A stretch of 64,000 nucleotides of DNA from Thermogutta terrifontis (GCF_002277955.1 NZ_CP018477.1:2377206-2441205); one strand, 5' to 3'; shown: positions 33,143-63,095, counted from the stretch's first letter. Made by a program: numbers and translations. Notes: generated by a model from the letters alone, not told the origin.

Positions 33143-33207
33143 GGGTCGGGCTCGAATTTGACGTGGAGTACCATCGGCTCATCGCTATTACGGTGGGGAG
33201 GTATCCA

Positions 33208-34626: not shown

Positions 34627-34842
34627 ATAACCACAGGTGTCATTGAACATAAGAATAGATAAGAATGGAACTGTCGTTAATAGTAGACGGAATAACCGGG
34701 CGCAGGTTCAAATACATAGCGATTGGTATTACAGAAGCTTTTTAATGGCGGTAAACCTCTGCTGTTTGCATGACCAACAGTCGCGGTTTGTTGAGATTTT
34801 TCGGAAAAGTCGTTTTGAGACCAGTTTGGGGAGGATGCTAAA

Positions 34843-40623: not shown

Positions 40624-43600
40624 TCAATTCACCTGCCAGCCGCTACCAATCTCCAAGTTCATTTGAATGGGCTCAGTGAGTTGCGCCTGATCGCTGCTGT
40701 CAGTAGTAGGCTGGAGCTTGGCAACCTCAAAACCCACAGCTCGGAAGAGCCACCGCATTTCCTCTCCGCTAACCACGAAGCGGTCCAGGACATCCCCGCT
40801 GATAGCCACCAGGTCATCGCCACCCGTCGGCCAGACTTTAAGCGTATCGCGACTGGTACCGGCTGTATTCGCTTCCGCATACACGTGATCGAAGGCCCGC
40901 ACGGTAATCCGGTATCGTGCCCCCGCGGTAACCTGGTCAAAGATCTCATGCTTGTGGCTCTTAACGTGGAATTCGTCTTTGAAGATGGAATCCACCAGGT
41001 CCGCTCTATCGTATCCCTGCGAAGCGAAGGCTGTGACGGTTCGAAAGTTGTGGGCCGTCACGTCGTACCCGGGCCCTGCCATGCGGCTAAGGCCGTAGCC
41101 GCCGAGGAACACGTCGTCACCCGGAGAGTCGAAGAACACCGCTCGATCATTATCGCCGGTCGCGAAGGCATGAACCACTTCAACCAGTTTGACCCGGTGG
41201 TACACCCCGGGACCGATCATCTTCACGTGCCTGTATTGCGGCTCAGATTTGAGGCTCACGGAGAGATCGACCAGACCGTGTTCCGACGAGTCGTACAGGT
41301 ATGCTGTGTCCTGGCCACCACCGGTTGCGTAAACGTGAGCTTCCTCGAACCCCACGATCTGATCCACGCTGACTGGAATGGGGCCTGGAATGACTGCTTT
41401 CAAGGAGCCCGGACGGAGATGAAATATATCATCACCAGGACCATCGTAGACCACGACGATGTCGACACCAGATCCAAGGCCGCCTTGCACCGTGAGGGAA
41501 TCGGGCGTCTCCGACAATCCATAGGAAACGCCATTGATCACCACCTGAGGTGAGGTCCCCGGCCGCAGAACCAAAAAATCATCGTGCTCAGTACCGAAAA
41601 CCGATACCAAAGCCCCCGACTCCCCTAGGAATTGGACGGCTAAAAGATTTACAAATCGGAGGGAAAAACTCGTGTCGCTGCCCGACGCGATCACGTAATA
41701 GAGTCGCCCTCCCTCGGCGAATTCATAATCCAGTCTGGTCTGGTTGTCTGCGAATTGGGACTGTGCCAGGAGCGTCGCCTCCGGATTCTCAAAGGGGTTA
41801 TCGTCATAAAGCTGAAGCGTTATCGACCCCGGGACGTCGAGACTCTCTCCTATGACCGTCAAAATCCCATTCCGTGTGGGAGACACCTGAAACACGAGGT
41901 CCGTCGGTTCCAAGGTCACTAAATCCGAGATTGTCAAATCGTCAACGGTGCCCAAGTCGCGGACGGAATAACGACCAGGCAGGAGGTTATGGAGGATCGT
42001 GATGCTGTTGGAAACCTGATTGAGGACCACGAGGTCGAGGCGACCGTTGCGATCGACGTCCACAGCGACGAGGGCTTCGGGGCTATCTCCCGCTGTGAAA
42101 CGCACTTCAGGAAGAAAGGTCCCGTCCCCGTTGCCGAAAAGAATCGCGACGTCGTTTGACCCGCTATTCGTCGTGGCGATGTCCAGGCGGCCGTCGCCAT
42201 CAAAGTCGGCCACTGTCAAGTGCGAGACAAAGTTTCCCACAGAGTACCGGCTTTCGGTCCCAAATGTCCCGTCACCATTGCCCAGACGGACGGACACCGA
42301 ATGATTCTGTCGATTGCCCGTAGCGATATCCACAAACCCGTCGCCATTAAAATCCCCTGCTGCTACCGAACGCGATCCGTCGCCCATCGTGTAGCGCAGC
42401 TCGGTTTGGAAAGTGCCGTCGCCATTGCCAAGAAGGATCGATACGTCGTCACTGTCCCAATTGGCGGAAATCAGATCCATCCGGCCGTCACCATTGAAAT
42501 CGCTTACCGCCAAAGAAAACGGGTTGCTTCCCACGGTAAAGCGGCCTCGCGCTTGGAAGGTGTTATCACCCAGTCCCAGAAGGATAGAGACGTCGTTGCT
42601 CCCCTGGTTGCAGACTGCCAGGTCAAGATGCCCATCGCCATTGAAGTCAGCAGCGACAACATCCGATGGGCCCTGCCCGACAGCAAATCGGGAATCGGAA
42701 ACGAACTGACCGCCACCAATGTTCTGGAACACGGCCACTTCCCCGTTGAAACGGTCAACTGCGACAAAGTCGGCGTGACCATCTCCGTTGAAATCGGCGG
42801 CGGCAACAGCCCCCATGTACGGGCCGATTGGATATCGCCCCATTTCTACAAAGTTGCCAGTGCGATCGTTGAGAAAAATGGAAACGTACCCGCCCGACCA
42901 GTTGGCCACCAGCAAATCAGGCCAACCGTCATTGTTGAGATCGGCCGGACGAACTCGCGACGGACTGAGTCCTGCTGGGTGCGACTGCCGGGATGGGAAC
43001 ACCCCAGTTCCATCACCGAAGATAATGGAAACGTCATAGGTGTTTACTGTCACCACGTCGAGGTGTCCGTCGCTGTTGACATCGCCGACGATGCCCGCAG
43101 CGCTTCCCGAGGATGCCGAGGGGCCAGGTGGAATATGCGTCTCGAAGGATCCGTCACCGTGTCCCGTCAGCGAGAGAATGGTACCTTCAGCATCAACGAG
43201 TGCTAGGTCTATTCGTGTGTCCGTGTTAAAGTCCCCGGCCAGCAAGTACTGGAGGGTTCTGTCTAGGCTCTGGAGGGACAGAACATCAAAGTTACCGTCG
43301 CCCTCGCCGAGCGCGACAAGGAAATACGGGGAGCCCCTCTCGCAGGCTGCGATATCGACGAGACCATCACCATCAAAGTCAGCCACAGCGATGGAATCCG
43401 TGCGGATGGGCACCAGTGTACTGACTAATTGAAATGCCTCGTCTTCCTCGAAGAGGTACACATCAATGCTGCCCAGATTCCCAACCAGCAAGTCCGGATG
43501 CCCATCGCGGTTGACATCTGCGACCGTGAGGGCACGGGGCGAAATGCCGGCCGGTGATTCGAACAAGACCTCGAAACTGCCATCCCCTTGATAGCTGAAA

Positions 43601-44178
43601 ATGGCCAAGCTGTTGCCGCCGTCGCTGACGAGGATCGCCGCAATATCAGGATTTCCGTCGCCATCAAAATCACCAACTGCGAGGTCGCGGGGAGACGAGG
43701 GCAGAGACCACAAAATTCCATCTCCAAGATTTCCCCCACCAGACCCAAAAAACAGCGACAGCGAGTTGTCACCGGAATTTGAAACAACGACGTCCAGATG
43801 ACCGTCGCCATCAAAATCCGCCATTTCGATATCGCTGGGAAGATCCCCTACGGGATACTGGGTTACGGTAAAACGTCCATCCCCCTCCCCGAAAAACACG
43901 CTGACCGCGTCTGCCAGGCGGTTGGCGGTCACCAGATCTGGGTTCCCGTCTTCGTTGAGGTCGCCCATCACGACCGAGGCCGGCTCGACATTTCCGAGAT
44001 GGAGTTTTAACCCGGGGAAGATGCTCGGTAGACTGGCATCCAGGAGCCAGCGTTCTTCGAGTACTTCCAAGCTAGGCCTTCTACGCCGCGTAAAGGATTT
44101 CTTTTTTACGCATCTTCTCCTTTTTTGTGTCCAACGATGCTCTGACAGCTCTCGCATCTGTCTCTCTCGGCCGGCCAC
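40624..44178 (-). CDS. giant FG-GAP/VCBS repeat protein with planctomycete N-terminal motif
   Basis: 1184 residues. The N-terminus is basic and then carries RRRRPSLEVLEERWLLDAS, matching the LEPR-XLL motif of planctomycete surface proteins; no ordinary signal peptide is seen. From about residue 65 to 735 there are 14 FG-GAP/VCBS repeats with calcium-binding cores (DFNGDGHLDL, DFDGDGRLDI and similar), enough for two seven-bladed propellers. The remaining C-terminal part, about 450 residues, has repetitive Asp-rich segments (VVYDGPGDDIFHL). GTG start at 44178 with GGAGG six nt upstream. Two palindromes lie just upstream. Extracellular; probably adhesion or surface-associated. Confidence 0.9.
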   Translation of the reverse strand: MAGRERQMRELSEHRWTQKRRRCVKKKSFTRRRRPSLEVLEERWLLDASLPSIFPGLKLHLGNVEPASVVMGDLNEDGNPDLVTANRLADAVSVFFGEGDGRFTVTQYPVGDLPSDIEMADFDGDGHLDVVVSNSGDNSLSLFFGSGGGNLGDGILWSLPSSPRDLAVGDFDGDGNPDIAAILVSDGGNSLAIFSYQGDGSFEVLFESPAGISPRALTVADVNRDGHPDLLVGNLGSIDVYLFEEDEAFQLVSTLVPIRTDSIAVADFDGDGLVDIAACERGSPYFLVALGEGDGNFDVLSLQSLDRTLQYLLAGDFNTDTRIDLALVDAEGTILSLTGHGDGSFETHIPPGPSASSGSAAGIVGDVNSDGHLDVVTVNTYDVSIIFGDGTGVFPSRQSHPAGLSPSRVRPADLNNDGWPDLLVANWSGGYVSIFLNDRTGNFVEMGRYPIGPYMGAVAAADFNGDGHADFVAVDRFNGEVAVFQNIGGGQFVSDSRFAVGQGPSDVVAADFNGDGHLDLAVCNQGSNDVSILLGLGDNTFQARGRFTVGSNPFSLAVSDFNGDGRMDLISANWDSDDVSILLGNGDGTFQTELRYTMGDGSRSVAAGDFNGDGFVDIATGNRQNHSVSVRLGNGDGTFGTESRYSVGNFVSHLTVADFDGDGRLDIATTNSGSNDVAILFGNGDGTFLPEVRFTAGDSPEALVAVDVDRNGRLDLVVLNQVSNSITILHNLLPGRYSVRDLGTVDDLTISDLVTLEPTDLVFQVSPTRNGILTVIGESLDVPGSITLQLYDDNPFENPEATLLAQSQFADNQTRLDYEFAEGGRLYYVIASGSDTSFSLRFVNLLAVQFLGESGALVSVFGTEHDDFLVLRPGTSPQVVINGVSYGLSETPDSLTVQGGLGSGVDIVVVYDGPGDDIFHLRPGSLKAVIPGPIPVSVDQIVGFEEAHVYATGGGQDTAYLYDSSEHGLVDLSVSLKSEPQYRHVKMIGPGVYHRVKLVEVVHAFATGDNDRAVFFDSPGDDVFLGGYGLSRMAGPGYDVTAHNFRTVTAFASQGYDRADLVDSIFKDEFHVKSHKHEIFDQVTAGARYRITVRAFDHVYAEANTAGTSRDTLKVWPTGGDDLVAISGDVLDRFVVSGEEMRWLFRAVGFEVAKLQPTTDSSDQAQLTEPIQMNLEIGSGWQVN

Positions 44179-45059: not shown

Positions 45060-48000
45060 ATGCTCGGGCCTTCCTTGGGGCAATCTGAAACCGGCATTCA
45101 TGATGACCGTTGGCATTGGCGTTCCCCAGAAGAGATCAGCCAGTCTCTGCGTCTGACCCGTTCTCCAACTTATCAGTGGCTACTACTCCACGAGCAGCAA
45201 CGCACTCTCGAGGCAATAACGCCCACCATAAAGCTTCTCGCTGAAGCCGAAGAGCAACAGGCCAAGGTGGAAGAGGAGTTTCTCAGAACCGAGCGCGAAC
45301 TCCGAAACCTTTGGAACAAACGGCGGACGGACGGGGAGCAACGGCGCCGGGCTGCGCAGCGCGAGCTGGAGCAGGCCGAGATGGCTGTCGCCCGAGCGCA
45401 AAGAGCCTTGGAGGCTGCCAGGGAACGGGTTGTGCAGCTGCGTACCAGGGACTTCACGCCGCAGGATCAGGCAATTCTGGAACAGGCTGTGCGGGAGAAG
45501 TGCGCGCCATTTGAAGAAACACTGGCCCGACTGCACAGGGAACGGGATTCACTCGAAGACGCGATCCAATCACTGGAAACGCAAAAGGCCGACCTGACAG
45601 CCCAGTTGGCGAAAGTTCAAGAGGACGCGCACTACTGGGGCCGTGGAAACTTGCCGCCGGAAGTGGAGCAGGCGGTCGAGAAGGCTGCCGAACAGGCACG
45701 TTCTGCGCACCAACAGGAAGTCCGCCAATTAGATCAAGAGATTGCCGCGTCGGAGAGGAAGTTGTCTGACCTTCGCACAGAGAAAGAAAATCTGACGCGA
45801 GAAATACAGCGACTCCAAAAGGAAGTTGAACAATACCGGGGAACGAGCGGCCTGTGGCGTTTGCTTGTCGGGTTTCTGTATAACCCCCCGGCGGCGCTTG
45901 CAAGGGCTCAGACTCGGTATGGCGAAATCGTAAGCGAAGAATCGAAGATCACCAGTTCCCTCGAGCAAATTAGATCAAAACGCCGTGATTTGATTACGCG
46001 GGAGGAGGAGCGAATCACCACGGCACGCCGCCACGAGCAGGACCGTCAATACAGCGCGTTCGTCGAAAAAAGAAGCCAGATTCCGGCGGAACTTCAGAAG
46101 TGTGAAGAGTCGCTCGCAACGGCACGGCGGGCATTGCAGAATGCGGAAATGAGACTGTGTGAATGCGAGAAAGCGCGCGACCGAGCACGGGAACAAGCAA
46201 TCGAGGATGCATGGCAGAAACTGCTGGCAGAAGCGGAAAAGGCCCTGGAGACAGCTCAAAAGGAGTATGACGCAGCGCATGAAAACAAGGTTGGTGCGGA
46301 ACAAAATCTTGTCGAAGCGGAAGCTTTTCTCGAGCGTTTGAAAGAGCAAGAGCATGAGGCTCTGGAATCCGGCTTGGCCGAACCACACCGTCGCCTGAGG
46401 GAATGCCGGGCTCAATGCGAGCGATTGCGGCACGAAATCGCTCTTCGATTGCAGGAGTGCGGAGTCACGCTCCCAGAATCCGCGCGGGCTGAGGAAATCG
46501 CCCAAGTTTGTGCCAATCGTCGCGAGGAGGTGTCGCGCCTGTTGACTCACGGGGATCGCGAGTCATGGGCGAAAAGTGATCGGGTGGAGAGAAGAGTTGT
46601 GGCTCGACGCAGTGCCACGTCGAGCGAAGAGAGTCCGGTGGCCGAAGGCACTCTCTACCTCGATTTCTATAGAAACGCAGAGGATAATTCAGACCGCGAA
46701 GGCTGTAAATGGGACGGTTTGAATACCCAGTTGAAGGAGTTGCTCGAGCGCTATGGAAAAACTGACACCCAGCTATTGCAGGAACCGCTCTCGTGGTTTC
46801 TGCCGACATTTTTTCCGGATGGCCTGGTTCGCAGTTATTTCGTTTGTAACATCAGTTACCGGGAAGACCAGCCTCGTTTATTAGTCCGGCCTACAACCAT
46901 AACTCCCCGCATGGAAGAAATACTGCCGCCGGGGGTCACATTGGGTGTTTGGGGACGGCTTATCGATAACCGCAACGATCCCGACAACCCTGTTCTGCTC
47001 GTCCAACGAATCGTCGATCTGTCACACTGCCCCAGGCGGGTATTCGAACGCGAAATCCGTGTGGTAGCACGCACAAACGAAGTGTATCCCGGCCGGCAAC
47101 GACGCCAAAACGTGCTGACGAGGTCTTTTATCGAAGCCCTCCCACCCATTTCAGTGGACACCCAGAAACGCCTTGCTGATTGGCGGGAATATCTCGATTG
47201 GAAAGAAACTTTGGCGAAAAAGAGCCTGGACGGAGTCCGCTACGTCCAAGTGACGTTGGATCGAGAAGATCCGCAAGGGCGACTCCGCTTTCTCGTGGTG
47301 GCTCCAGGCCGCGAGAGTTGGGAAAGGATGCGTCGCATCCTGCGACAGGATGAAGTGCGGGCCTATTCCCTTGATTATTCGAAGGATCCGTGGACTTTTG
47401 AGTACAACGATGATCGCCGGGCTCAGGAGACGGAACTGGGCGATTTCGTGAGTCTTGAGCAGGCGTCTGAACCGCCGAACGAGGTGGATCTGACCGGCAT
47501 GCCCTGGGAAAACCCTATCTGGGGGTGGGCCATGTACCGGCTGACCGAACCAGCGCAAGAGGAATTCGATCGGATGCGCGAGGAAGGAGCCAGTTGGCAG
47601 CGGATTGAAGAGGTGCTTCTTCGAAAAATCCCCCGTCAGGGCTTTCTTTCTCTCTCCATCGTGGGAGATCTCGCGCTGGTAAAACGACAGCGCATTGCGT
47701 TGGATCGTCTGCAGGAACAGTCGGGCTATGCCCCCCTCTTATCGAGCTATCTGTTCGACATCAAGGCAGCAGACGAGCCGGCCGAGCTCGTCTCCATACC
47801 AGAGGACCGGTGGTTCCGGAAAGATCTCAATGAGGATCAAAAGCTGGCGGTTTGCAAGATGATCAGTGCTCCAGACCTGGCGCTCGTCCAGGGGCCTCCC
47901 GGCACAGGCAAGACCACCATGATCGCAGAGGCCATCTGTCAACTGGTGGAACAGAAAAAGACGGTTCTGTTGGCCTCGCAGGCAAACCTGGCTGTGGACA

Positions 48001-50549
48001 ATGCTCTGGAACGCCTCGCGGGATTTCCCAGTATTAGGGCGATCCGACTGGGACAACGGGCCGATGAAAGTGGCCCTTTCAGCGAGAATCAGGCTCTCGC
48101 AACGTATTACCAAGCGATTGCCAAAACCTGTCGGGAAGGGATTCTTCAGCCGTGGGCAGAGGCGGAGCGAATGCTGCGGGAACTTCAAGAGTGGCTTGCC
48201 CAGGTAGACATTCTCACGGCTGACCTGGCTGGGATGGAGCTGAGGCATCGGTCGCTCGCGGATCGCTGTGACGAGATCATTGCGGCGATGAATGACGCGT
48301 ATCAGGCCGAGGAACGGAGCCGCCGGGTTGCTATGGAACGGGAGCGGGCAAAAGAGTTTCTGGCGTTCCTGAACAACGGGGCCAATGGTCCGGGGCAACT
48401 CCCAGCGGACATTGCCGAGGAACTCGTGGGAATGGTCTCCCCACTGGTCGAAAAACTGCGGACCGTGGGAATTGATCTCGATCCTGGACAGGTGACCATC
48501 GCACCGCTTCCTACCTCCCAGCAATCTTTGGGACTTGCACAGATCTTTCGCCGGTGGCAGGAAGTCGAGAGGCTCGTTCCTCGGTTGGAGGCAGACGCCA
48601 AGCGTTTGGAGGCTTCTAATGCCGAAGGTGTCCTCTCGCAGGAAGATGCTCTCCTCTTGGAAGAACTTCAACGGAAGGCGCGGCAGCTGCAGGAAGAGAT
48701 GGCGGAGGACGCGAGCAAGCTCCCTGCGTGGCAGGAAGTGCAGAAACGGATCCGCGAACTTCGAAAGCGTGGCAGTGGCCTAAATGCCGAAGTTTACCAG
48801 GCAGTGTTCACTGCGACAGTCGATGGTATTCCAGTTGCCCATCAGTTCACCAACCCCGATGCCCGGCGACAAGAGGTTCTTTCACGTCTCTACGAGGCTC
48901 TTCGCACGATCGGCGAAGTGCGTGACGAAATGGCCCGTGTTTATGAGAATTGCCGGATAAGAGTGGAAGAGTTCGTCAACGCGCCGGCGCCAGGCGGGCC
49001 TTCCGCCGAACAAACACGCCGCTGGGAAATTGAGCTGGCCAATGTGAGGGATCAACTGGCGCTTCTCGAGCGGCAAATGGCGGAAAAAGAGTCGTGTCTG
49101 GGGGAGTTATTGCGCAAACACTGGGAAAGCCCCGAGCACGCCCCAAGCCGGGCGGATCTGCTTGCCATTCGGCACCGTGTCACGGAACAACTTGAACAGC
49201 TCAAGCATTTCCTTCAGCGTCAAGAGCCGATCCGAAAGGCCTGGAGCGAGATCCTGGAGGGTTGGACCAAATCCCTCATGGATCCAACTGTAGCGGAGCG
49301 TGACCACCACCAGTTCTTTCCCATTTACCTCAAAGCGTGCAATGTCGTGGGTGTGACATGCACCGAGAATCCTCAGACCCTGGAAAAGTACGGCTTTGTC
49401 CGATTCGACGTGGCGATTGTGGACGAGGTCAGTAAGGCCACTCCACCTGAAATCGTCATGCCACTTTTGCTGGCCCGCACGGCCATTCTCGTGGGCGATC
49501 ACCGGCAACTTCCACCCCTTTTCCGCGAGCGGGAACTGCCTTGGGAAGAAATGGTGGCAGAGACCGAAGCGGGAGACGAGGAAAACGGTCAGGAACCGGT
49601 GCTTCTGACTCGGGAAACATTCGAACGCTTTCGTAAGTTAGTGACTGCCTCGCTGTTCAAAGAGCACTTCGAGAACGCATCCGACACGCTGAAGTCTTTC
49701 CTTTTCACACAGTATCGGATGCACCCTCAGATCATGAAGGTGATCAACCATTTCTACGAAAACCGGCTGGTATGTGGTCTCCGTGATCCCGACGGTAGGG
49801 ACCCAAATTCTGATCCTCGGGAGCATCGCCTTCACAATTTGACTTTGCGCGGTCCCAAGAATCGCACTTATCTTGTACCGGATCAACATGTTCTGTGGAT
49901 TGATTCCTCGTTCGATCCTTTAGGAAAACCACACTTTGAAGAGCGGACGGGGTCAGGGGGCAAAACAAACGCATTAGAAGCGCTGCTCATTGCGCAGTGC
50001 CTGTATGACATTGAAATGGCCTATCGAGAGATGGGCTTCGGGTCCGGTAAGAAGCCTCCGCGTCGAGTTGGTGTGATCACCTTTTACACCCGCCAGGTGC
50101 GGACAATTCGCGAAACTCTTCGTCGTTTCCAAAGAAAACAGAATTTCAACTTTCAGGCGATTCGCGTAGATATCAACACGGTGGATCGCTATCAGGGGCA
50201 GGAACGTCCCATTGTACTCGTGAGCCTGGTCCGCAACCCGTCCCACAGATTATCACGGCGTGCCAACACGGCTCAGTTTGAACGCATTAATGTGGCATTC
50301 TCGCGGGCGCAGGAACTGCTGGTAATCGTTGGTGCGGAGCAGACTTTTCGCCAGTATCCTGTGAGGCTGCCTCATCTTGACCGGCCAGGGTACCGGGAAG
50401 TCGAGGTTTATCGGCACATCATCGAGGAGATCGAGCGGTGGGGATGCTTTTGTTCCGCAGCCGAGATCCTGTCCGCGGAGACATACCAAGAGTTTCAGCG
50501 ACAAATGGGACGTGCCGTGCAGCCAATTGTGAGAGGAAGCAAGCCATGA
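45060..50549 (+). CDS. 1829-residue coiled-coil SF1 (Upf1/DNA2-like) helicase
   Basis: The first gene of the five-gene cluster. Residues about 45-480 are an Arg/Glu/Gln-rich coiled coil with several breaks. Residues about 520-900 hold an unrecognised beta-rich region (EGTLYLDFYRN..., VRYVQVTLDREDP...). The SF1B ATPase starts near 940: Walker A QGPPGTGKT at about 945, SQANLAVDNALERL, DEVSKATPPEI (Walker B) at about 1455, ILVGDHRQLPP, QYRMHPQIM at about 1551, DRYQGQERPIVLVSL at about 1709 and RINVAFSRAQ at about 1745. Walker A and B are about 510 residues apart, with long helical segments between. It probably unwinds or translocates on DNA or RNA. The start has only a weak ribosome site and there is a stop in frame just upstream. 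Confidence 0.88.
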   Translation: MLGPSLGQSETGIHDDRWHWRSPEEISQSLRLTRSPTYQWLLLHEQQRTLEAITPTIKLLAEAEEQQAKVEEEFLRTERELRNLWNKRRTDGEQRRRAAQRELEQAEMAVARAQRALEAARERVVQLRTRDFTPQDQAILEQAVREKCAPFEETLARLHRERDSLEDAIQSLETQKADLTAQLAKVQEDAHYWGRGNLPPEVEQAVEKAAEQARSAHQQEVRQLDQEIAASERKLSDLRTEKENLTREIQRLQKEVEQYRGTSGLWRLLVGFLYNPPAALARAQTRYGEIVSEESKITSSLEQIRSKRRDLITREEERITTARRHEQDRQYSAFVEKRSQIPAELQKCEESLATARRALQNAEMRLCECEKARDRAREQAIEDAWQKLLAEAEKALETAQKEYDAAHENKVGAEQNLVEAEAFLERLKEQEHEALESGLAEPHRRLRECRAQCERLRHEIALRLQECGVTLPESARAEEIAQVCANRREEVSRLLTHGDRESWAKSDRVERRVVARRSATSSEESPVAEGTLYLDFYRNAEDNSDREGCKWDGLNTQLKELLERYGKTDTQLLQEPLSWFLPTFFPDGLVRSYFVCNISYREDQPRLLVRPTTITPRMEEILPPGVTLGVWGRLIDNRNDPDNPVLLVQRIVDLSHCPRRVFEREIRVVARTNEVYPGRQRRQNVLTRSFIEALPPISVDTQKRLADWREYLDWKETLAKKSLDGVRYVQVTLDREDPQGRLRFLVVAPGRESWERMRRILRQDEVRAYSLDYSKDPWTFEYNDDRRAQETELGDFVSLEQASEPPNEVDLTGMPWENPIWGWAMYRLTEPAQEEFDRMREEGASWQRIEEVLLRKIPRQGFLSLSIVGDLALVKRQRIALDRLQEQSGYAPLLSSYLFDIKAADEPAELVSIPEDRWFRKDLNEDQKLAVCKMISAPDLALVQGPPGTGKTTMIAEAICQLVEQKKTVLLASQANLAVDNALERLAGFPSIRAIRLGQRADESGPFSENQALATYYQAIAKTCREGILQPWAEAERMLRELQEWLAQVDILTADLAGMELRHRSLADRCDEIIAAMNDAYQAEERSRRVAMERERAKEFLAFLNNGANGPGQLPADIAEELVGMVSPLVEKLRTVGIDLDPGQVTIAPLPTSQQSLGLAQIFRRWQEVERLVPRLEADAKRLEASNAEGVLSQEDALLLEELQRKARQLQEEMAEDASKLPAWQEVQKRIRELRKRGSGLNAEVYQAVFTATVDGIPVAHQFTNPDARRQEVLSRLYEALRTIGEVRDEMARVYENCRIRVEEFVNAPAPGGPSAEQTRRWEIELANVRDQLALLERQMAEKESCLGELLRKHWESPEHAPSRADLLAIRHRVTEQLEQLKHFLQRQEPIRKAWSEILEGWTKSLMDPTVAERDHHQFFPIYLKACNVVGVTCTENPQTLEKYGFVRFDVAIVDEVSKATPPEIVMPLLLARTAILVGDHRQLPPLFRERELPWEEMVAETEAGDEENGQEPVLLTRETFERFRKLVTASLFKEHFENASDTLKSFLFTQYRMHPQIMKVINHFYENRLVCGLRDPDGRDPNSDPREHRLHNLTLRGPKNRTYLVPDQHVLWIDSSFDPLGKPHFEERTGSGGKTNALEALLIAQCLYDIEMAYREMGFGSGKKPPRRVGVITFYTRQVRTIRETLRRFQRKQNFNFQAIRVDINTVDRYQGQERPIVLVSLVRNPSHRLSRRANTAQFERINVAFSRAQELLVIVGAEQTFRQYPVRLPHLDRPGYREVEVYRHIIEEIERWGCFCSAAEILSAETYQEFQRQMGRAVQPIVRGSKP

Positions 50550-51913
50550 CCATCAGTTTGACCAAGTTTCGCGTTGGGCTGCCGGCCCTGCGATTCTCGG
50601 TGCAAATCACGCACAGTGTTCCGCGGATCGTCACGGCGTTCGAGCGGATCACGCTCGTCATGTGCGACCGTTTGTCCGGTGACCCCCTGTTCCGACGGCT
50701 CCCTCTCGTGAGGGCCTTCGAAGATTTCCTCTGTGTCCCGGATGCCGCCCCGCTTGTTAATGCCGTCATCAACGAGCTCATCACTGTAGGTGCTGTCGCT
50801 CCCCGGAGAAAAGACTGTGATCCGCAGTGGCTCCGTTTCGAAGAACTGGAGATAACCTCGGCGGGCCAACAGATGCTGGCGGACAACCAAATCGAAGCGC
50901 GAAGCCAAGTCCATGAGGAATCGTTTCTCTTCGATCCCATCGGGCCGAGAATCCTTAGCGAGGAAGACGCTCTCCGCTACTCTTCTCAATCCCCGGCCAT
51001 TAGAGTCAATCCTGAAGTCTTTCAGAATCTGTTCCCTGAAAACCTGATCAGGGAATGGATTCCCAATGCCCGTTTTCCATGGTGGCGCCCTCAGGCTCGT
51101 ATTCAGGGGCTTAGACCAATCGCGGAACCCGAGATTCTATGGCGGGAGGTCATGGCAAGCGTCGACCTGCGAGATGGGCGGATCGCATTGCAATTGCCAA
51201 ATGAAACGGAAACCGAATACATCAATTGCCTCCCCGCCGCGGAAATCGTGGGACGATTTCTCACACCGGCCCTTGGTTTGGATAAGTTACGTGGGGAAAG
51301 GTTGGAAACGTGGCCGATTGTGTCTTCATCCTCGGGCGATTCGGGTGGCGGTCAATGGGTGGCCCTCCCCCGTTTTGCCGAAACGATCCCCGATTCAGTA
51401 CGCTGGTGCATTGTGCATCCCAAGCTCCTTTCCCTGGCTGTTTCGGTCCAAGCCCAGGGGCGGCTTATCGTCAGCTATGATCCAAATCTGTCGCACGATC
51501 TTGCTGTGAGATGGAACTCCGATGGGGCTGGGTGTCAGGTGATGGAACGCGGTGACTGGCCATTTCCCGACAGTGTACTCTGTGTTTGTGAGACCCAGGC
51601 CTTGATCGGTCATTGCCTCCGAGTGCGAGTGCAGGATGAGGAAGTTCTCCTGCCGGTCGGCGTGTGGACAGCGAATACAACCTCGGCACCAGGAGAAGCT
51701 GATGTCTTCCGCGATCTCGCATCCAGGTTGCGCCAGGTGCCGGACGAAGACCGCCTGGTGATCCCGCGCTGGTGGCAGAGAAGGGAGACCTTTGAGACTC
51801 AAACGCGACAGACCCTGGCACAGGCAGGCTATTCCATGAGCGAGGCAGAGGCTCTCATTGCCCGCCTTGAAACTCGATTTACCAACATCCAAAAACGGAG
51901 GGGAGCACGCTAA
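50546..51913 (+). CDS. unrecognised 455-residue protein of the helicase cluster
   Basis: 455 residues. Its ATG overlaps the helicase stop by ATGA, so translation is coupled. The N-terminal 100 residues (VPRIVTAFERITLVMCDRLSG, LVRAFEDFLCVPDAAPLVNAVINELITVGAV) look helical, like a winged-helix adaptor. The middle contains FPWWRPQARIQ. The C-terminus holds VIPRWWQRRETF and a helical end (GYSMSEAEALIARLETRFTN). No catalytic motif is visible and there is no signal peptide, so it is expected in the cytoplasm. It may bind the helicase or its nucleic acid. No family can be named. Confidence 0.72.
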   Translation: MTISLTKFRVGLPALRFSVQITHSVPRIVTAFERITLVMCDRLSGDPLFRRLPLVRAFEDFLCVPDAAPLVNAVINELITVGAVAPRRKDCDPQWLRFEELEITSAGQQMLADNQIEARSQVHEESFLFDPIGPRILSEEDALRYSSQSPAIRVNPEVFQNLFPENLIREWIPNARFPWWRPQARIQGLRPIAEPEILWREVMASVDLRDGRIALQLPNETETEYINCLPAAEIVGRFLTPALGLDKLRGERLETWPIVSSSSGDSGGGQWVALPRFAETIPDSVRWCIVHPKLLSLAVSVQAQGRLIVSYDPNLSHDLAVRWNSDGAGCQVMERGDWPFPDSVLCVCETQALIGHCLRVRVQDEEVLLPVGVWTANTTSAPGEADVFRDLASRLRQVPDEDRLVIPRWWQRRETFETQTRQTLAQAGYSMSEAEALIARLETRFTNIQKRRGAR

Positions 51914-52146
51914 AGACGTGACGGAAGGCCGCAGTAAACGGGAAGTCGCTCCGGTTTTTTGCGATCAGCGTCGGATTCTCTGGGAGCAAAAACTTATACC
52001 GGGTGGTCCGAGATGTTGACCGAAAGTTGCACGAAAATTTCGCGAGGGGAACGTAACGCAATCCGGCAAATCGTGCAATTTGTTATTTGGTTGCATCGTC
52101 TTTCGTAAAGAAACAAGAGAAACCACGAGGAGTATGGGGTATTGCT

Positions 52147-53325
52147 ATGAGCGAACTGGGTATTTTCGAGTGGATTTTTGGTGGTCCTTCGCAAGACCGT
52201 CGTCGTGACAGACACGCGGAAGAAGCCCGACGAGCACAATACCTGGAGCGAGTTCGTGAGACTACCAGCCGATATCGGGACCGCTATGTGGAAACCTATG
52301 AGGATCTCCTCGCCCAAGGTCTCGATCAATACCTGCCGCAAGAGTTTGCATGGGTTGAAGAGCAACTCGACGAGCTTGATGAACTTCTCGAGACTGATCC
52401 CCTGGCCGCTCGCGATTTAAGTTTTGAACTGGCTCCTATAATCAGTCGGCTACCCGCACGTGCCCGACAGGCCAGGCGAGAATACGAGGAGGAACGCCGT
52501 CGTCAGGAAGAGCGTTTGGCCAAACTGCGGGCCGAAGCCACATCCGAGCTCGGCCGATATCTTGAAGAGGCCATCGCCCAGATAACCGATCCCGTGGAGC
52601 AGGATTTCGTCCTGGAAGACTTGCAGGCTCTGAGAGACGAGTTTGCGCAGCGCTCCGTCCTTCCCGAGGAACTGCCCGCCGTTCAACATGAGATCAGCGA
52701 GAGGATTCGGCTTCTTCGAGAGAAAGGAGCGCGTCAGGCGCAAGAATGGAGGGACGCGAAGGCACGCCAGATTGAGAGCGAAGCTCGCCGAAAACTTCTC
52801 GACTTCTACAGTGCCGAGCTGGCAAGGCACCCTAATCAGGTTGAGGCTCAGCAGAAGCGAGAACGTCTGGAAAATCTTTATAAGTTGGCCGAGGCGCAAG
52901 GATTATCGCTCGAAGAGTTTCAGGCACGGTTGGTGGCAGAAACGGAAGACGCAGAACCGGCTCCGCGCGGAGAAGAGGCCCGCCGCCAGGTGGTCCGTGC
53001 AATCATGGAGAGCCTGACCCGTTCGGGTTTCATTGTTGATCAGCCGCGACTTCTTCGGGAAACAGACGAAGTTCTGATTCGTGCCAAAAAGCCAGCCGGA
53101 GCAGAAGCCAATTTTTCGGTCCGCCTCAATGGGACGATGATTTACAAGTTCGATCATTACGAGGGCATGAAGTGCAAGGACGATATCGACAAAGTCCTAC
53201 CCCTACTGGAACAGATCTACGGCATCCGGCTGTCCGATGCCCGCGTCCTCTGGCGAAATCCTGACCGATTGTCCAAGTCAGCACGCCCTTTGGATGGGAA
53301 TCAACGGAGAGAAAGCCATGGCTAA
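52147..53325 (+). CDS. coiled-coil protein with compact C-terminal domain
   Basis: 392 residues. N-terminal about 270 residues are highly charged and helical (DRRRDRHAEEARRAQYLERVRETTSRYRD..., REYEEERRRQEERLAKLRAEATSELGRYLEE). From about residue 285 a compact domain follows: RRQVVRAIMESLTRSGFIVDQPR, FSVRLNGTMIYKFDHYEGMKCKDDIDKVLPLLEQIYGI, ending with ARVLWRNPDRLS. That segment looks like a conserved family I cannot name. The 233 bp after gene 2 hold no gene and might contain an internal promoter. Its stop overlaps the next gene's start by 8 nt. The ATG has a GAGGAG element, but 14 nt upstream. Confidence 0.7.
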   Translation: MSELGIFEWIFGGPSQDRRRDRHAEEARRAQYLERVRETTSRYRDRYVETYEDLLAQGLDQYLPQEFAWVEEQLDELDELLETDPLAARDLSFELAPIISRLPARARQARREYEEERRRQEERLAKLRAEATSELGRYLEEAIAQITDPVEQDFVLEDLQALRDEFAQRSVLPEELPAVQHEISERIRLLREKGARQAQEWRDAKARQIESEARRKLLDFYSAELARHPNQVEAQQKRERLENLYKLAEAQGLSLEEFQARLVAETEDAEPAPRGEEARRQVVRAIMESLTRSGFIVDQPRLLRETDEVLIRAKKPAGAEANFSVRLNGTMIYKFDHYEGMKCKDDIDKVLPLLEQIYGIRLSDARVLWRNPDRLSKSARPLDGNQRRESHG

Positions 53326-55180
53326 CCATCGCGAAAACCGGTGGCTGGAGAACTTCACTCGACAGGCCGCGATCCGACGCGCCCTCATCGTCCACGGCGA
53401 GGTTCAGGATCTCTGCTATTGTCCCTATACGCAGCAATACCGGTGTGTCAGCGAAGTGCTCGTTAACACCCTCAAAAACATGGGTTTTCACCATGTGGTG
53501 GTTTGGGACCGATTTTCTGGTGTGCAAGGAGTTTCGGACAATGTATGGCAGGGACTGGTGCGAAATACTGTAGCGGCCTCACAATCGCGCAACAACTTTA
53601 CCATGCAGGGAGAAGCATATGATGTGGGCGCCGGTTCCACCATGCCACCCAGCACAACAGTTCCACAGGCCGATGATTTCCTTGCCGTGGTTTATCACAA
53701 TCTTGTGCATCCCTCGGCAGAGCGCTACGCCTTTCTCATCGACTGGTCACAATATCTCTTCGGTAACGCCAATGCTCTTTCCGAACAGGAACGGCAGTGG
53801 CTGCTTGTGATGTCGAAGGCGATTCGCAATGCTCCTATTTCGGTCACCGAAATGGAAGCGCTGACCCGGCCCGGGAATCTCATCGTCCTGCTGTGCTCGC
53901 AACTGGGCGCCCTGCCGCCCGCCCTTTATATGGGCAACCCAGCGATTGCCGACGTCCTCATCCCCCCACCGGGACGTCCCGAACGCGAAGGCTTTTTACA
54001 ACGGACTCTCCATGCCTGGTGCCTGAAGTCCTTGCCACGGCCCGGTGAAGTCAGATTCTCTCAATTTGTCGATTCCCTCGACGGAATGACCATCCGTGAT
54101 CTCCATCAACTCCTCAAACTCTCCCGGGTAAATTCCTCAGAGCCACTGTCGTTCGAACATCTTATTAATCTTTACAAGTACGGGCAGCGGGAAAGCCCCT
54201 GGGAAGACCTCAGTCGAGGGCGACTGGCAACCATTCGTGAGGAACTCAAAAAACGGGTGAAAGGTCAGGACGAGGCTGTTGAAAAAGTGGCGAGCGTCAT
54301 CATCCGCGCCTACACGGGGTTGTCCGGACTCCAGCACTCGATCAAACAGAAGACCCCCAAAGGTGTTCTCTTTTTTGTGGGACCGACGGGGGTAGGCAAG
54401 ACCGAGCTTGCCAAAGCGCTTGCTGAATTCCTTTTTGGAGATGAGGACGCCTGTATCCGTTTCGATATGTCCGAGTTCAACCACGAACACAGCGACCAGC
54501 GGCTCGTCGGCGCTCCGCCCGGCTATGTGGGTTATGAGGAAGGGGGACAACTGACCAATGCCGTGAAAAAACGCCCATTTTCCGTACTCCTTTTCGACGA
54601 AATCGAAAAAGCCCATGTCCGGATCCTGGATAAATTCTTGCAAATCTTGGAGGACGGGCGACTTACCGACGGGAAGGGAGAAACGGTTTCCTTTGCCGAA
54701 ACCGTCATCATTTTCACATCCAATATTGGGGCGTCAGAAATCACTTGTCAGGCCGATCCCGAGGTCGTCCGTCAGCAGTTTTTAGAAAAGGTTCGCCATC
54801 ACTTCATTCATGTGGCCCAAAGGCCAGAACTCCTCAATCGGATCGGCGATAACATCGTTCCCTTCCAATTCATCACGAATGAAGAGTTTCTGGTGGCCAT
54901 TGCACGAGCAAAACTGCAACCCATTCGCGAACGTCTCCGCGAAAAATATCGTTTTAAGGATCTCGTTTTTGATGACGAGGCAAAAGCTCTGCGGGCTATC
55001 GTGTCATGCGTTGATCGCCAAATGGGGGGACGAGGCGTTCTCAATCAACTGGTGAAACATCTTCTCGATCCCCTTGCCATCTTTTTATTCGAGGAAGATG
55101 AACCGGCGGCCTACGTGGGGCGCACACTTGTAGTACATCAGGCAGGCAACGAGCCTAAATTTGCTTTTGAAGTCGTATGA
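53318..55180 (+). CDS. ClpB-D2-type AAA+ ATPase with non-canonical N-terminal half
   Basis: 620 residues. The C-terminal half is an AAA+ module of the Clp/Hsp100 D2 type: RVKGQDEAVEKVA, Walker A GPTGVGKTELAKALAEFL (about 355), FDMSEF, pore loop GAPPGYVGYEEGG (about 402), Walker B VLLFDEIEKAH (about 426), TSNIGASEI and arginine finger RPELLNR (about 502). The N-terminal half (ALIVHGEVQDLCYCP, NTLKNMGFHHVVVWDRF) does not show Walker A and seems a degenerate or alternative AAA-like domain. No Clp-N domain and no ClpP-docking loop are seen, so it is probably a remodelling, not a proteolytic, partner. It overlaps the preceding gene by 8 nt and the next by 4 nt. Confidence 0.86.
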   Translation: MANHRENRWLENFTRQAAIRRALIVHGEVQDLCYCPYTQQYRCVSEVLVNTLKNMGFHHVVVWDRFSGVQGVSDNVWQGLVRNTVAASQSRNNFTMQGEAYDVGAGSTMPPSTTVPQADDFLAVVYHNLVHPSAERYAFLIDWSQYLFGNANALSEQERQWLLVMSKAIRNAPISVTEMEALTRPGNLIVLLCSQLGALPPALYMGNPAIADVLIPPPGRPEREGFLQRTLHAWCLKSLPRPGEVRFSQFVDSLDGMTIRDLHQLLKLSRVNSSEPLSFEHLINLYKYGQRESPWEDLSRGRLATIREELKKRVKGQDEAVEKVASVIIRAYTGLSGLQHSIKQKTPKGVLFFVGPTGVGKTELAKALAEFLFGDEDACIRFDMSEFNHEHSDQRLVGAPPGYVGYEEGGQLTNAVKKRPFSVLLFDEIEKAHVRILDKFLQILEDGRLTDGKGETVSFAETVIIFTSNIGASEITCQADPEVVRQQFLEKVRHHFIHVAQRPELLNRIGDNIVPFQFITNEEFLVAIARAKLQPIRERLREKYRFKDLVFDDEAKALRAIVSCVDRQMGGRGVLNQLVKHLLDPLAIFLFEEDEPAAYVGRTLVVHQAGNEPKFAFEVV

Positions 55181-55785
55181 ATACACCTTGGCTGAACCTC
55201 GCCCACTGGCTGGACTGCACGGAAGTCGAGGGTCCCGGACGGAGATTCGCTCTATGGGTGCAGGGGTGCCATATTCGATGTCCAGGATGTTGCAATCCGC
55301 ACATGCTGGAATTTGTGCCCCGACATCTTGTGCCCGCCGAGAGAGTTGCGGAGTGGATTCTGCACGCGCACCGACGCTGGAATCTGGAGGGTGTGACTTT
55401 CCTCGGTGGAGAACCTATGCTCCAGGCCAAAGGTCTTGCCTTGGTAGCGGAAAGGTCACGCCGCGCCGGCCTTTCAGTCATGGTCTTCACCGGCTTCACC
55501 CTAGAATACCTGGGTAGCTGTTCCCTCCCCGGCGTGAAACAACTCCTGGCAGCCACTGATCTTTTGGTCGACGGGCCGTACCTTGCCCATTGTCCAGAGA
55601 CGAAGCGTCACTGGGTCGGTTCCACCAACCAGCGCTTCCATTTTTTAACTGATCGATATCAGCCAGGCTTGGAATACGATCCTCGTTTCGCCAGGGGCAT
55701 AGAACTCCGCATCCGGTCGGACGGAATGGCGACCTACAATGGCTGGCCGGGGGAACTCATCAGCGAGGTTGGACACGAATCATAG
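55177..55785 (+). CDS. small radical SAM protein (activase-like, 4Fe-4S single cluster)
   Basis: 202 residues, last gene of the cluster, overlapping the AAA+ stop by ATGA. The radical SAM motif CHIRCPGC (C31, C35, C38) is followed by an extra Cys (C39), and TFLGGEP (77-80) is present. The size and the GCHIRCPGCCNPHML context match NrdG/pyruvate-formate-lyase-activase-like proteins. No glycyl-radical enzyme is encoded nearby, so the partner may be a protein of the same cluster or elsewhere. Its 3' end overlaps the convergent glycosidase-like gene by 26 nt. It is unlike viperins, which are larger. Confidence 0.85.
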   Translation: MNTPWLNLAHWLDCTEVEGPGRRFALWVQGCHIRCPGCCNPHMLEFVPRHLVPAERVAEWILHAHRRWNLEGVTFLGGEPMLQAKGLALVAERSRRAGLSVMVFTGFTLEYLGSCSLPGVKQLLAATDLLVDGPYLAHCPETKRHWVGSTNQRFHFLTDRYQPGLEYDPRFARGIELRIRSDGMATYNGWPGELISEVGHES

Positions 55786-57829
55786 CGTAATCCAACCCAT
55801 TTAACTCAAGTTCCAGGATGTTTCCCGCAATGCTCACCGGGGCTTCACTGACGACCTCCCGAGCAGTGACCGTCTCCGATTGACCCAGCGCTGAAAAGTC
55901 GATCGTCAACCTGGCACGACATTTTTCCTGCGCGAGATTAAAGGCCACCAAGATGAAACCCCCGCCAGGCCTGTTGTGGAGACTTACCTTCACAGCATCC
56001 TGGTCGCAGCGAACGAACCTCGCGCTGTCCCAATAAGGGATCCACTCTGCCTCGTGGCGTCCTAACTCGTCGAATGCCCGCCACATGCGGGCAGAGACGG
56101 CGACATCTTCCATCCTGTTGGGCCTGACGGGCACGTCGTGGAGAAGGGCCAGCCCCACTGCTTCCCGGCGTTGGAACGGTCCGCTGGGATACCACAACAA
56201 CTCTGCCGGCACACCCCAGTTGCGCCCCATGAACTCCGCGCGGAATGCGTCGAGGGGCAGGACCTCTCCAGGTGATTCCGGACGCTTGATGCTTTGCAGG
56301 TGCTCACCGTCCCAATAGCTCGTGGCAAAGGCGAGCGTCGGAATAACCATGCAGGTGGATTGATGAACGTTTACCTGGCCATTTGGGTTATGCTTTTTCA
56401 CGATCGTGTAAATTCGCCGCATAGTTTGGCGGACGGCGAAGATCGGATACGTTGTCCCCACCGACCCATCTGGCTTCACGTAGCCGCAGCCATGGAGTTG
56501 ATTCCTGCACCCCCACGGCTCCGAGGTTCCGTCCAGGTAGACGCCGTCGATGTCGTATTCATCAATCAGTTTGGCAATCCCATCGCAGATAAAGTCCTGC
56601 CAGTGACTGCGGTAACAGACAATGTAGGCGGTCTGCTCCGGCTGCCGCTTGTATCCTCCAGCCCGCGGATAGACCAGGCATTCCTCATGATATTGGTCCC
56701 ATTCTGGTGCGAGGGTGCTCATCTCGTATCCATGATAGAGCAGCAGCTGAATGCCGCGGTCATGACATGCTTTGACCAATTTGCGAAGTTTTTCTCCGTG
56801 CGTTGTCCGGGGGTAATTTTGGATATCAGTCCAATGTTCATGGAAGCAGATCGTCCTTACGCCATACTCCGCCAACCGATCAAGAATTCCCGGCGGATTC
56901 TCTTCGATTCCATAATTTCCCATGTGGCAAATTCGATAGTCCCAGGCGTCTGGTTGCATCGGTTTAACCGGCGTTGCCTGAAAGCCAAATGTGTATTCCA
57001 GCGGTGTGTTGAGCTTACGAGGTTTGCCCACGAGATGGATAACCAGAACCACGGAATTCTTTTCCGGACGGACTTCGATAACCCGGTTCGGATCCACATC
57101 CCAAAAGTTTTGATCTGATTCCGCAAACCAGGCTAATCCCCGCTCATCGTCACCAATCCAGAAGAACGGCTTGAACGAGATTTGGTATCCGTCGGGTGGA
57201 ATGGCTCGGGAATTGAAAACACTCCCCCACCGGCCCGGCCAAAAGTGGAGATACTTGGCCCGCTCTGGCCGAAAAGGAATTTCCAGGTCAAGTTTTTCCA
57301 GCGCCACATCAGGATGAGCAGGTTTCAGCTCGAAGTCGCAGCGGACCATCCCATCATATTCGATGAGGACCGTACCGTTGCATTCAAGGCTATCCGTCGC
57401 CGCTTGAATGCGAAGCCTTGCCCGCACTGGAGAGCTCTCCAGAACGGTCAGTTCCCTGCCCTTCCATAAGAGCGGTTGGCCGGCCGACGTACCACCTAAA
57501 GCGATGGGCCCAGCGAGGATCTCCTGGGATGCTGAGGTGATCTGAGAGGGAAAAGGAAGGTCAGAGAATCGATACACGCGTCCCCAAACGTGGACGGCAT
57601 GGCCCTCGACTGCAACCGGTGTCCACGGTGGAAGAAGTTCGTCGCTCTGTCCCGCTGGGCTGCCCAACCAGGGTGGTTGGACGCGGCTTTCTTCTCCCGA
57701 TAACGCGAGGTGGCTTGCCATCATGAACGTAATCATCAGCGTTACTGCCAGTCCTGTCTGCATTTTCTTCCCAGGTGAAATTACCGGGTCGCACGAAGAA
57801 AGCCGGATAGGATCAATGACGTGTCTCAT
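55760..57829 (-). CDS. secreted glycosidase-like protein (DUF6067/GH123-like)
   Basis: 689 residues. N-terminal beta-rich domain (to about 280) with WIGDDERGLAWFAESDQNFW, typical of the DUF6067 family, then a TIM barrel: TICFHEHWTDIQNYP, HDRGIQLLLYHGYE, DEYDIDGVYLDGTSEP (candidate catalytic acids near residues 428-435), QVNVHQS. A C-terminal beta-sandwich ends with LELELNGLDYAMIRVQ. GH123-type enzymes act on N-acetylhexosaminides. The start at 57829 has GGAGG six nt upstream; the signal peptide follows a long basic N-terminus. The 3' end overlaps the radical SAM gene of the five-gene cluster. Confidence 0.82.
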   Translation of the reverse strand: MRHVIDPIRLSSCDPVISPGKKMQTGLAVTLMITFMMASHLALSGEESRVQPPWLGSPAGQSDELLPPWTPVAVEGHAVHVWGRVYRFSDLPFPSQITSASQEILAGPIALGGTSAGQPLLWKGRELTVLESSPVRARLRIQAATDSLECNGTVLIEYDGMVRCDFELKPAHPDVALEKLDLEIPFRPERAKYLHFWPGRWGSVFNSRAIPPDGYQISFKPFFWIGDDERGLAWFAESDQNFWDVDPNRVIEVRPEKNSVVLVIHLVGKPRKLNTPLEYTFGFQATPVKPMQPDAWDYRICHMGNYGIEENPPGILDRLAEYGVRTICFHEHWTDIQNYPRTTHGEKLRKLVKACHDRGIQLLLYHGYEMSTLAPEWDQYHEECLVYPRAGGYKRQPEQTAYIVCYRSHWQDFICDGIAKLIDEYDIDGVYLDGTSEPWGCRNQLHGCGYVKPDGSVGTTYPIFAVRQTMRRIYTIVKKHNPNGQVNVHQSTCMVIPTLAFATSYWDGEHLQSIKRPESPGEVLPLDAFRAEFMGRNWGVPAELLWYPSGPFQRREAVGLALLHDVPVRPNRMEDVAVSARMWRAFDELGRHEAEWIPYWDSARFVRCDQDAVKVSLHNRPGGGFILVAFNLAQEKCRARLTIDFSALGQSETVTAREVVSEAPVSIAGNILELELNGLDYAMIRVQPR

Positions 57830-61807: not shown

Positions 61808-62926
61808 TCATTCCCTTGCCAGAATCTCACCTATTCTTTCGGCGGCGTGACCATCCCAAAGGTCAGGGCATCTTCCGCTTTTGTATCGTCCCGCCAGGAC
61901 TTCTTCTAGGCAGTGACGCAACCTGTGCGGGTCGCTACCCACCAGCGTGCTGGTCCCTTCAGTCACCGTAATCGGCCGCTCCGTATTCGGCCGCACAGTG
62001 AGACAGGGGATGCCCAAGGCCGTACTCTCTTCCTGCAACCCTCCTGAATCAGTGATCACCACCTTGGCCTGCGAGGTTAATGAAAGAAACTCCAAGTATC
62101 CTAGTGGTGGTAATGCCCAGATCCTTCGACGTCCTGTTCCCTGGCCGTCCAGGAGGTGCCCTAACCCGAATGCCTCAATCCTGTGCCGTGTGCGGGGGTG
62201 AATCGGAAAGACTACGGGAAGCTCGGCCGCCACTTCTGCGAGAACCTCCAGGAGACCTGAGAGCGTCTCGGCGTGGTCCACGTTGCTCGGCCGATGAAGC
62301 GTCACCACTGCGTATCTGCCGACTGGGAGTCCCAAACGCTGCGGGGTGCCAACTTCTCGGGCGCGCGGCAGAAGAGCCAGCAGCGTATCGATCATCACGT
62401 TGCCGACGAGGTGAATTTGCTCCTCGGGATGCCCCTCCCGGACGAGGTTCTCCACACCGGACGGCTCAGAGACGAATAGCATGTCCGCGACTGCGTCGGT
62501 CACGATGCGATTGATTTCCTCCGGCATGGAGCGGTCGAAGCTCCGCAGCCCCGCTTCAACATGAGCCACCGGAATCCCCAGCTTGATGGCCGCAAGGGCC
62601 GCTGCCATTGTTGAGTTCACGTCGCCCACCACAATGACGCGGTCAAATTTTCGGCCGTCGGGCGTGCCCGCCAGGAGCACTTCCTCCATTTTTTCCAGAA
62701 TTCTTGCGGTTTGCTGGGCATGTGTCCCCGAACCAACGTTGAGATGCACATCCGGTCGCGGCATCTCCAAATCCTGAAAAAACACGTCGCTCAGTTGTGG
62801 ATCGTAGTGCTGACCGGTGTGAATCAGAACGGGACGAATCTGGGAGTACGCCCGCAATGCCCGCAAGATCGGGGCCATCTTCATGAAATTCGGTCGCGCA
62901 CCGACAACGCAGGCAAAAACCTTCAT
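61808..62926 (-). CDS. wecB: UDP-N-acetylglucosamine 2-epimerase (non-hydrolysing)
   Basis: 372 residues. WecB interconverts UDP-GlcNAc and UDP-ManNAc in the cytoplasm for surface polysaccharide. Motifs: VVGARPNFMKMAPILRAL, HTGQHYD, VVGDVNSTMAAALAA, VAHVEAGLRSFDRSMPEEINRI, HRPSNVD, VFPIHPRTRHRI, ITDSGGLQEES and NTERPI. All expected residues are present. The start at the ATG is two codons after an in-frame GTG. It neighbours a heparinase-like gene on the same strand 169 bp away, in line with a glycan locus continuing outside the window. Confidence 0.97.
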   Translation of the reverse strand: MKVFACVVGARPNFMKMAPILRALRAYSQIRPVLIHTGQHYDPQLSDVFFQDLEMPRPDVHLNVGSGTHAQQTARILEKMEEVLLAGTPDGRKFDRVIVVGDVNSTMAAALAAIKLGIPVAHVEAGLRSFDRSMPEEINRIVTDAVADMLFVSEPSGVENLVREGHPEEQIHLVGNVMIDTLLALLPRAREVGTPQRLGLPVGRYAVVTLHRPSNVDHAETLSGLLEVLAEVAAELPVVFPIHPRTRHRIEAFGLGHLLDGQGTGRRRIWALPPLGYLEFLSLTSQAKVVITDSGGLQEESTALGIPCLTVRPNTERPITVTEGTSTLVGSDPHRLRHCLEEVLAGRYKSGRCPDLWDGHAAERIGEILARE

Positions 62927-63095
62927 CGTCACCCCGTTTGTCTCAGCAAGTCCATAAATAAAGTTCCACTTCAGTCGCTAGGAAACCTACCTTGCGGAAT
63001 AGCCACGATCAAGACCGCTGCCCAGGCCAAGATCCTCTGGAAAACAGTCCATAGAGCCCGGGTTATCAGATAATTAGGATTATAGAAATGTGATG

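Follow-up and report, generated by a model that had tools for sequence, protein, structure and literature searches.

A constant adaptor joined to variable effectors is a hallmark of conflict systems. In CoCoNuTs and their relatives a UPF1-like helicase, CnuH, is followed by CnuE, in which an elongated winged helix is fused to varied effectors (Bell et al. 2024, PMC11090510). In the sections of a further paper considered here, one radical SAM effector is mentioned in an FtsH ternary system, and the DO-GTPase/GAP1 and MoxR-vWA systems described there resemble the locus reported below in pairing a constant regulatory NTPase module with variable effectors (Kaur et al. 2020, PMC7159879). The regulatory NTPase of the present locus is a Clp-type threading ring with a radical SAM partner, a combination absent from those sections.

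The window analysed, a 64,000-nucleotide stretch of the Thermogutta terrifontis genome (GCF_002277955.1 NZ_CP018477.1:2377206-2441205), contains a cluster of five plus-strand ORFs at 45060-55785, the boundaries of which were confirmed to the base. A first-pass annotation had proposed these five ORFs, their overlaps and a 233-bp gap from sequence inspection, and all were found as described. The ORFs lie far beyond chance: in 200 shuffles of the cluster region the longest stop-free run was 252 codons and the 1829-codon frame of gene 1 is therefore not accidental. ATGA overlaps join genes 1 and 2 (at 50546) and genes 4 and 5 (at 55177), genes 3 and 4 share an 8-nt overlap at 53318, and the gap between genes 2 and 3, the sole long gap in the operon, is shorter than the length needed for a PIN domain. 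Features of the cluster, in window coordinates, are as follows.

45060..50549, plus strand: gene 1, SF1 (UPF1/MkoA/CnuH-like) helicase, 1829 aa (Pfam, PADLOC, intact motifs)
45192..46559, plus strand: gene 1 N-terminal coiled-coil extension, aa ~45-500 (64% E/K/R/Q/A/L, 5% G+P)
about 47826-50339, plus strand: gene 1 helicase core
50546..51913, plus strand: gene 2, CnuE-like effector carrier, 455 aa, recognised effector absent here
50558..51208, plus strand: gene 2 shared N-terminal domain, aa 5-221 (profile and hhalign)
51914..52146, plus strand: intergenic gap between genes 2 and 3, 233 bp, stops in all three forward frames
52147..53325, plus strand: gene 3, coiled-coil protein with conserved C-terminal domain, 392 aa (alignment)
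52969..53298, plus strand: gene 3 C-terminal domain, aa 275-384, with invariant GxxC (12-sequence alignment)
53318..55180, plus strand: gene 4, ClpC/ClpB-like AAA+ unfoldase, 620 aa, without Clp N-domain
53327..54187, plus strand: gene 4 first AAA-like domain, aa 4-290, without Walker A (ASCE-like strand order in model)
54212..55099, plus strand: gene 4 active AAA (D2-type) ring, aa 299-594, pore loop GAPPGYVGY
55177..55785, plus strand: gene 5, NrdG/PFL-activase-like radical SAM enzyme, 202 aa, CX3CX2C at nt 55267-55290

The helicase region of gene 1 matched AAA_12 (3.9e-36) and AAA_11 (1.3e-30) in Pfam, and the PADLOC MkoA model at 1.1e-104 across aa 688-1794, a resemblance to Mokosh; IGHMBP2/UPF1-type matches were also drawn. 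The SF1 motifs GPPGTGKT, VDEVSKA, GDHRQLPP, QYRMHP and YQGQE are intact, as are the AAA+ and CHIRCPGC radical SAM motifs that had been read from the sequence beforehand. No DUF4011, kinase or nuclease domain is present in gene 1. A comparison of its coiled-coil extension with other parts gave no significant phmmer match, and among loci with the canonical five genes only one (L103) encodes a comparable extension. The locus differs from Mokosh in comprising five genes, which include AAA+ and radical SAM members, and in having no MkoB or other Mokosh partner among genes 2-5; similarly, the match to the MkoC architecture of Mokosh type II was limited to the helicase core and genes 2-5 gave no Mko match. 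Assignment of gene 1 to Mokosh, PLuB, ProA or Hhe was rejected, with scores under curated cut-offs or partners absent.

Likened by description, the first two genes correspond to CnuH/CnuE of type II/III CoCoNuTs (PMC11090510): an SF1 helicase of the UPF1 type, which has a long helical insertion, directly precedes an effector carrier whose N-terminal domain is conserved and whose C-terminal effectors are exchanged (HEPN, PLD and others in CnuE), with occasional TerY-P-like neighbours (locus L210 here). No Pfam matches of the TerY-P triad (vWA, PP2C and kinase) were found in the five window proteins. In contrast to a CoCoNuT, the cluster lacks the McrB/CnuB GTPase and McrC/CnuC and instead includes gene 3, a ClpC/ClpB-like AAA+ protein and a radical SAM enzyme, and the gene 2 family includes PIN and Ppx/GppA effectors. 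No McrC match was obtained among the five window proteins, and the sole AAA+ protein of the cluster is ClpB-type, scoring 288 of 1232 bits against the ClpB equivalog and 17.9 of 637 bits against the McrB model. Since McrBC is absent from the cluster it is not a CoCoNuT; that identity was rejected for want of McrB and McrC partners although the helicase/effector-carrier pair fits. The initial statement that the cluster matches no named defence system holds for the whole set, for which no naming paper or model was found, but not for genes 1 and 2, which have the CnuH/CnuE precedent (PMC11090510). The five-gene set is not named in the open-licence PMC literature or system models searched, so that its novelty is provisional. 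The helicase-effector pair is of an already known kind, and the proposed AAA+-radical SAM switch is the novel part.

Window gene 2 gave no match in Pfam, NCBIfam, PADLOC or PHROG, and an AF2 model of this protein alone, with no homologues, reached a pLDDT of 34, too low to support a winged-helix fold for its N-domain. A profile of PIN-type gene 2 proteins matched its aa 5-220 with an E value of 1.5e-21 and an hhalign probability of 97.7. Members of the family range from 455 to 1030 aa, the window copy being the shortest, and have the first ~220 aa in common with C-termini that differ between loci. A C-terminal PIN_4 domain was detected by Pfam in L097 (4.6e-22) and L103 (3.1e-6) and PIN was assigned through sequence similarity in L098, L099, L100 and L209; the acidic residues of these PIN domains are kept. 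In L092 the gene 2 product (6197-9289) carries a Ppx/GppA-type domain at its C-terminus (aa 723-1022, Ppx-GppA 5.5e-30), which is unusual here as an effector or regulator. The L094 protein contains two RNEFQH motifs of HEPN type, recognised by eye and given no support by Pfam. Similarity in the N-domain is weak in L093 and L094, and their gene 2 assignment consequently leans mainly on gene order. A PLD-like domain suspected by eye in L093 gene 2 was discarded (hhalign probability 2.3), as were the second genes of Pseudomonas aeruginosa (L221) and Hymenobacter (L222) helicase loci as gene 2 homologues, their similarity being undetectable. The gene 2 N-domain was also present in stand-alone helicase and effector pairs on cyanobacterial plasmids (L219, L220), one of which adjoins a type I RM gene. 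From these sequence comparisons gene 2 is seen as a constant N-domain with exchanged C-terminal effectors. The C-terminal ~235 aa of the window protein (aa 222-455) had no relative within the locus set; this long open region could be an unrecognised effector. Genes 2 and 3 had first been entered as two unknown proteins, a description that now applies to the unrecognised C-terminus of window gene 2; its N-terminal 220 aa are common to effector-carrying homologues, and gene 3 has a conserved C-terminal domain.

The GxxC of that gene 3 domain is invariant in 12 of 12 aligned sequences, and the domain is also present in L101, L212 and L213; the gene 3 profile recovers the members used to build it. 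The short last protein of the DUF4011 subtype (s2d) was tried as a gene 3 relative and rejected (hhalign probability 1.3). Gene 4 matched AAA_2 at 3.3e-52 and has one Walker A in the whole protein, at aa 355. Its Walker A (GPTGVGKT), Walker B (FDEIEKA), pore loop (GYVGY), sensor 1 (TSN), arginine finger (RPELLNR) and sensor 2 (GGRG) are intact. An AF2 model (pLDDT 71) aligned over its full length with the D1-D2 region of ClpC/ClpB (Z about 30), beginning at ClpC residue ~182, and the Clp N-domain is absent. Gene 4 thus shares with ClpB/ClpC (Hsp100) two AAA domains, the second having Walker A/B, an aromatic pore loop and an arginine finger, and differs in lacking the Clp N-domain and an ATP-binding (Walker A) first AAA domain. 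Its earlier description as a ClpB-D2-type AAA+ is borne out as regards the D2 ring but is too narrow, the protein being a ClpC/ClpB-like double AAA whose first domain has no Walker A. Matches to Dodola DolB and PDC-M37B covered the AAA core only and neither identity was accepted.

Gene 5 matched Fer4_12 (8.4e-30) and Radical_SAM (9.1e-9), and CHIRCPGC and GGEP are intact, with C31, C35 and C38 invariant in the alignment. Small NrdG-like enzymes usually activate glycyl-radical proteins. Gene 5 resembles NrdG and pyruvate formate-lyase activases in being a small, single-cluster radical SAM enzyme of the Fer4_12 family with CX3CX2C and GGEP, but it scored 82.9 bits against the NrdG model, under the cut-off of 126.1, and its genome has neither a glycyl-radical enzyme nor NrdD: the complete genome, a single 4.81-Mb contig, gave no match to Gly_radical (PF01228) or NRDD (PF13597), profiles that were both positive in control genomes. 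A plain NrdG/PFL activase was rejected on this ground, and of the proposed radical SAM activase the radical SAM family resemblance is retained and the activase role is not. With no PF01228 or PF13597 protein in the genome, the target of gene 5 is probably inside the operon. The conserved domain of gene 3, which accompanies the AAA+-radical SAM module, would for that reason be the leading candidate.

Searches with the N-terminal half of gene 4, which sets it apart from housekeeping ClpB/ClpC, detected relatives in the same phylum, and whole gene 4 detected them in named genomes. The same five-gene order was observed in nine further loci, with neighbouring genes overlapping or separated by short gaps. 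Three are in other genomes of the window's phylum, Planctomycetota (L092, L093, L094), and tblastn revealed plasmid copies in Moellerella (L097), Photobacterium (L098), Polaromonas (L099), Acinetobacter (L100) and Leisingera (L103). The last, in a bin of the Verrucomicrobiota set (L209, 1080-11042), shares 79-92% identity per protein with the Moellerella operon (7478-17431), indicating either recent transfer or a misbinned contig. By profile the canonical set was present in 4 of 392 genomes of the window's phylum, about 1%, and there were 2 strong matches in 289 in the Verrucomicrobiota set. It was found in 0 of 240 in the class of Bradyrhizobium, and in 0 of 369 in the class of Burkholderia, where the best few candidates per genome were scored and sensitivity was limited. 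A DNA-level search gave no match in E. coli. Phage records contained no full-length match, and viral contigs none for genes 2 and 3; a phage origin was rejected on these searches. The five genes had been supposed to belong together, with conservation in distant phyla as the suggested check, and their co-occurrence in one order in nine loci from several phyla agrees with this and contradicts the refuting case named at the outset, in which they would never be found together elsewhere. The tight overlaps, initially read as a sign of a co-made complex, may reflect one. These data demonstrate that the five-gene set is real, rare and mobile and recurs in distant bacteria. The rarity (4/392; 0/369) limits context statistics.

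Genes 3-5 also occur beyond the canonical operon. Distances for gene 4 and gene 5 over 22 loci were correlated (Spearman 0.80; 0 of 5000 permutations), to which shared host ancestry can contribute. The gene 3 domain, AAA+ and radical SAM genes lie directly beside DO-GTPase/GAP1-N2 genes in L212 and with a DO-GTPase-like gene in L213, and L210 combines the gene 3-4-5 module with vWA, PP2C, kinase and SF1 helicase genes. AAA+ and radical SAM genes accompany kinase-DUF4011-SF1-REase proteins in L014, L018, L020, L096, L211 and L217; this sister fusion, with an MTES_1575 nuclease, resembles the ProA, Hhe and PDC-S37 DUF4011-helicase proteins but falls far under curated cut-offs (480 of 1500 bits for ProA). 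A clostridial plasmid (L102, 1173-19035) encodes a DUF4011 protein, two protein kinases, FHA, radical SAM, ClpB-like AAA+ and PP2C proteins, and this cluster resembles a phosphorylation-controlled cousin. In clostridial L012, L013 and L015 a full-length AAA+ homologue was found with no CX3CX2C radical SAM gene detected nearby, and from these sequences the AAA+ protein may function without a radical SAM partner. Because the modules are found separately as well, the data do not require one shared mechanism. The operon could accordingly comprise two independent neighbours, a CnuH/CnuE-type defence pair and a separate AAA+-radical SAM protein-maturation unit, as the pair alone on cyanobacterial plasmids and the many loci with AAA+-radical SAM genes lacking this pair would allow. 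This is an unlikely arrangement given that all five genes keep a fixed order across phyla with coupled reading frames, and that the AAA+-radical SAM genes accompany other conflict-system cores, including other SF1 helicases.

The genomic context of the plasmid copies differs from that of the window copy. On the Acinetobacter plasmid pNDM1_010055 the operon (7719-17438) adjoins brxL (BrxL) and a DarT-family gene, the Moellerella operon has ArdA, integrase and AbaSI-type endonuclease neighbours, and the Photobacterium operon an HsdR-N protein and an integrase. The Acinetobacter operon is carried by an NDM plasmid, and immediately downstream (17709-19691) come genes for a small AAA ATPase, another radical SAM protein and a hypothetical protein. 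Two more radical SAM genes are located directly upstream of the Photobacterium operon on the opposite strand (4434-6502). The window copy is surrounded by sulfatase, FG-GAP and glycosidase genes with no defence island, so that the defence neighbours sought at the outset were present on plasmids (BREX, DarT, ArdA and restriction genes) and not at the window locus. A tandem pair of sulfatase genes amid glycan-related genes occupies 33163-36324, and upstream of the cluster on the minus strand (40624-44178) is a large FG-GAP repeat surface-type protein of 1184 aa. A GH123-like gene (55760-57829) and a UDP-GlcNAc 2-epimerase gene (61808-62932) were also observed. The base composition of the cluster is ordinary, being that of its surroundings, which together with the non-defence neighbours suggests that the operon is probably an old resident at this site.

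An alternative is a role in stress response or nucleic-acid repair, in which the helicase and AAA+ protein clear stalled or damaged nucleoprotein and the radical SAM enzyme repairs or tags the lesion or protein. UPF1/IGHMBP2-type helicases and Clp rings generally serve surveillance and quality control, and the window copy combines ordinary composition with the lack of a recognised toxin; however, relatives bear PIN or other swapped effectors on plasmids near BREX, DarT and RM genes, and occurrence in about 1% of the phylum is unlike a repair pathway, making this role improbable. Less probable still is that the copy in the window has lost its effector, is decaying and no longer functions. No family member has a shorter gene 2, the region that holds PIN, HEPN-like or Ppx domains elsewhere is missing from it, and the sole long gap of the operon follows it; against this, all five frames are open, the catalytic motifs of genes 1, 4 and 5 are all intact and gene 2 aa 222-455 is long, open and perhaps itself an effector.

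On balance, and judging from sequence, the operon is more probably a rare, horizontally moving, modular anti-invader defence system in which a helicase-effector pair is regulated by an AAA+-radical SAM module. The absence of a recognised effector from the window copy, its sulfatase and glycosidase neighbours and its ordinary composition count against defence. In the defence system as proposed, the UPF1-like helicase would act as sensor and motor, patrolling nucleic acid, probably RNA or single-stranded DNA. The gene 2 protein would be docked on the helicase via the shared, possibly winged-helix-like N-domain and carry the effector, which is swapped between loci, with RNases (PIN, HEPN-like) or other enzymes in the majority of relatives; in the window genome the effector domain may be one not yet recognised, or an effector may act in trans. 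The coiled-coil gene 3 protein would couple this pair to the double-AAA threading unfoldase encoded by gene 4, and gene 5 would modify one of the system's proteins by radical chemistry, with the GxxC of gene 3 as the favoured site. Depending on this modification, the AAA+ ring would or would not act on the helicase-effector complex, by pulling on it or remodelling it, such that a toxic effector is held off in healthy cells and released upon invasion, a role equivalent to that of the McrBC or MoxR-vWA modules of related systems. The exact radical chemistry in this scheme is put forward tentatively.

Viperins are known antiviral radical SAM enzymes whose products are small molecules. Gene 5, in a genome that offers no ordinary substrate, instead most likely acts on a protein. 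If the defence interpretation is right, the operon would represent a multi-gene defence family that as yet has no name and whose RNase effectors are exchangeable, and the combination of a threading ring with a radical SAM enzyme would be a regulatory principle absent from the literature searched. A broader and rather speculative proposal is that genes 3-5 form a portable immune-regulation module, in which a radical or radical-derived protein mark gates the effectors of several unrelated conflict systems, namely CnuH/CnuE-type pairs, DUF4011 helicase-nucleases, DO-GTPase/GAP1 and kinase/PP2C/vWA systems. If true, this would amount to radical-based protein switching in immunity.
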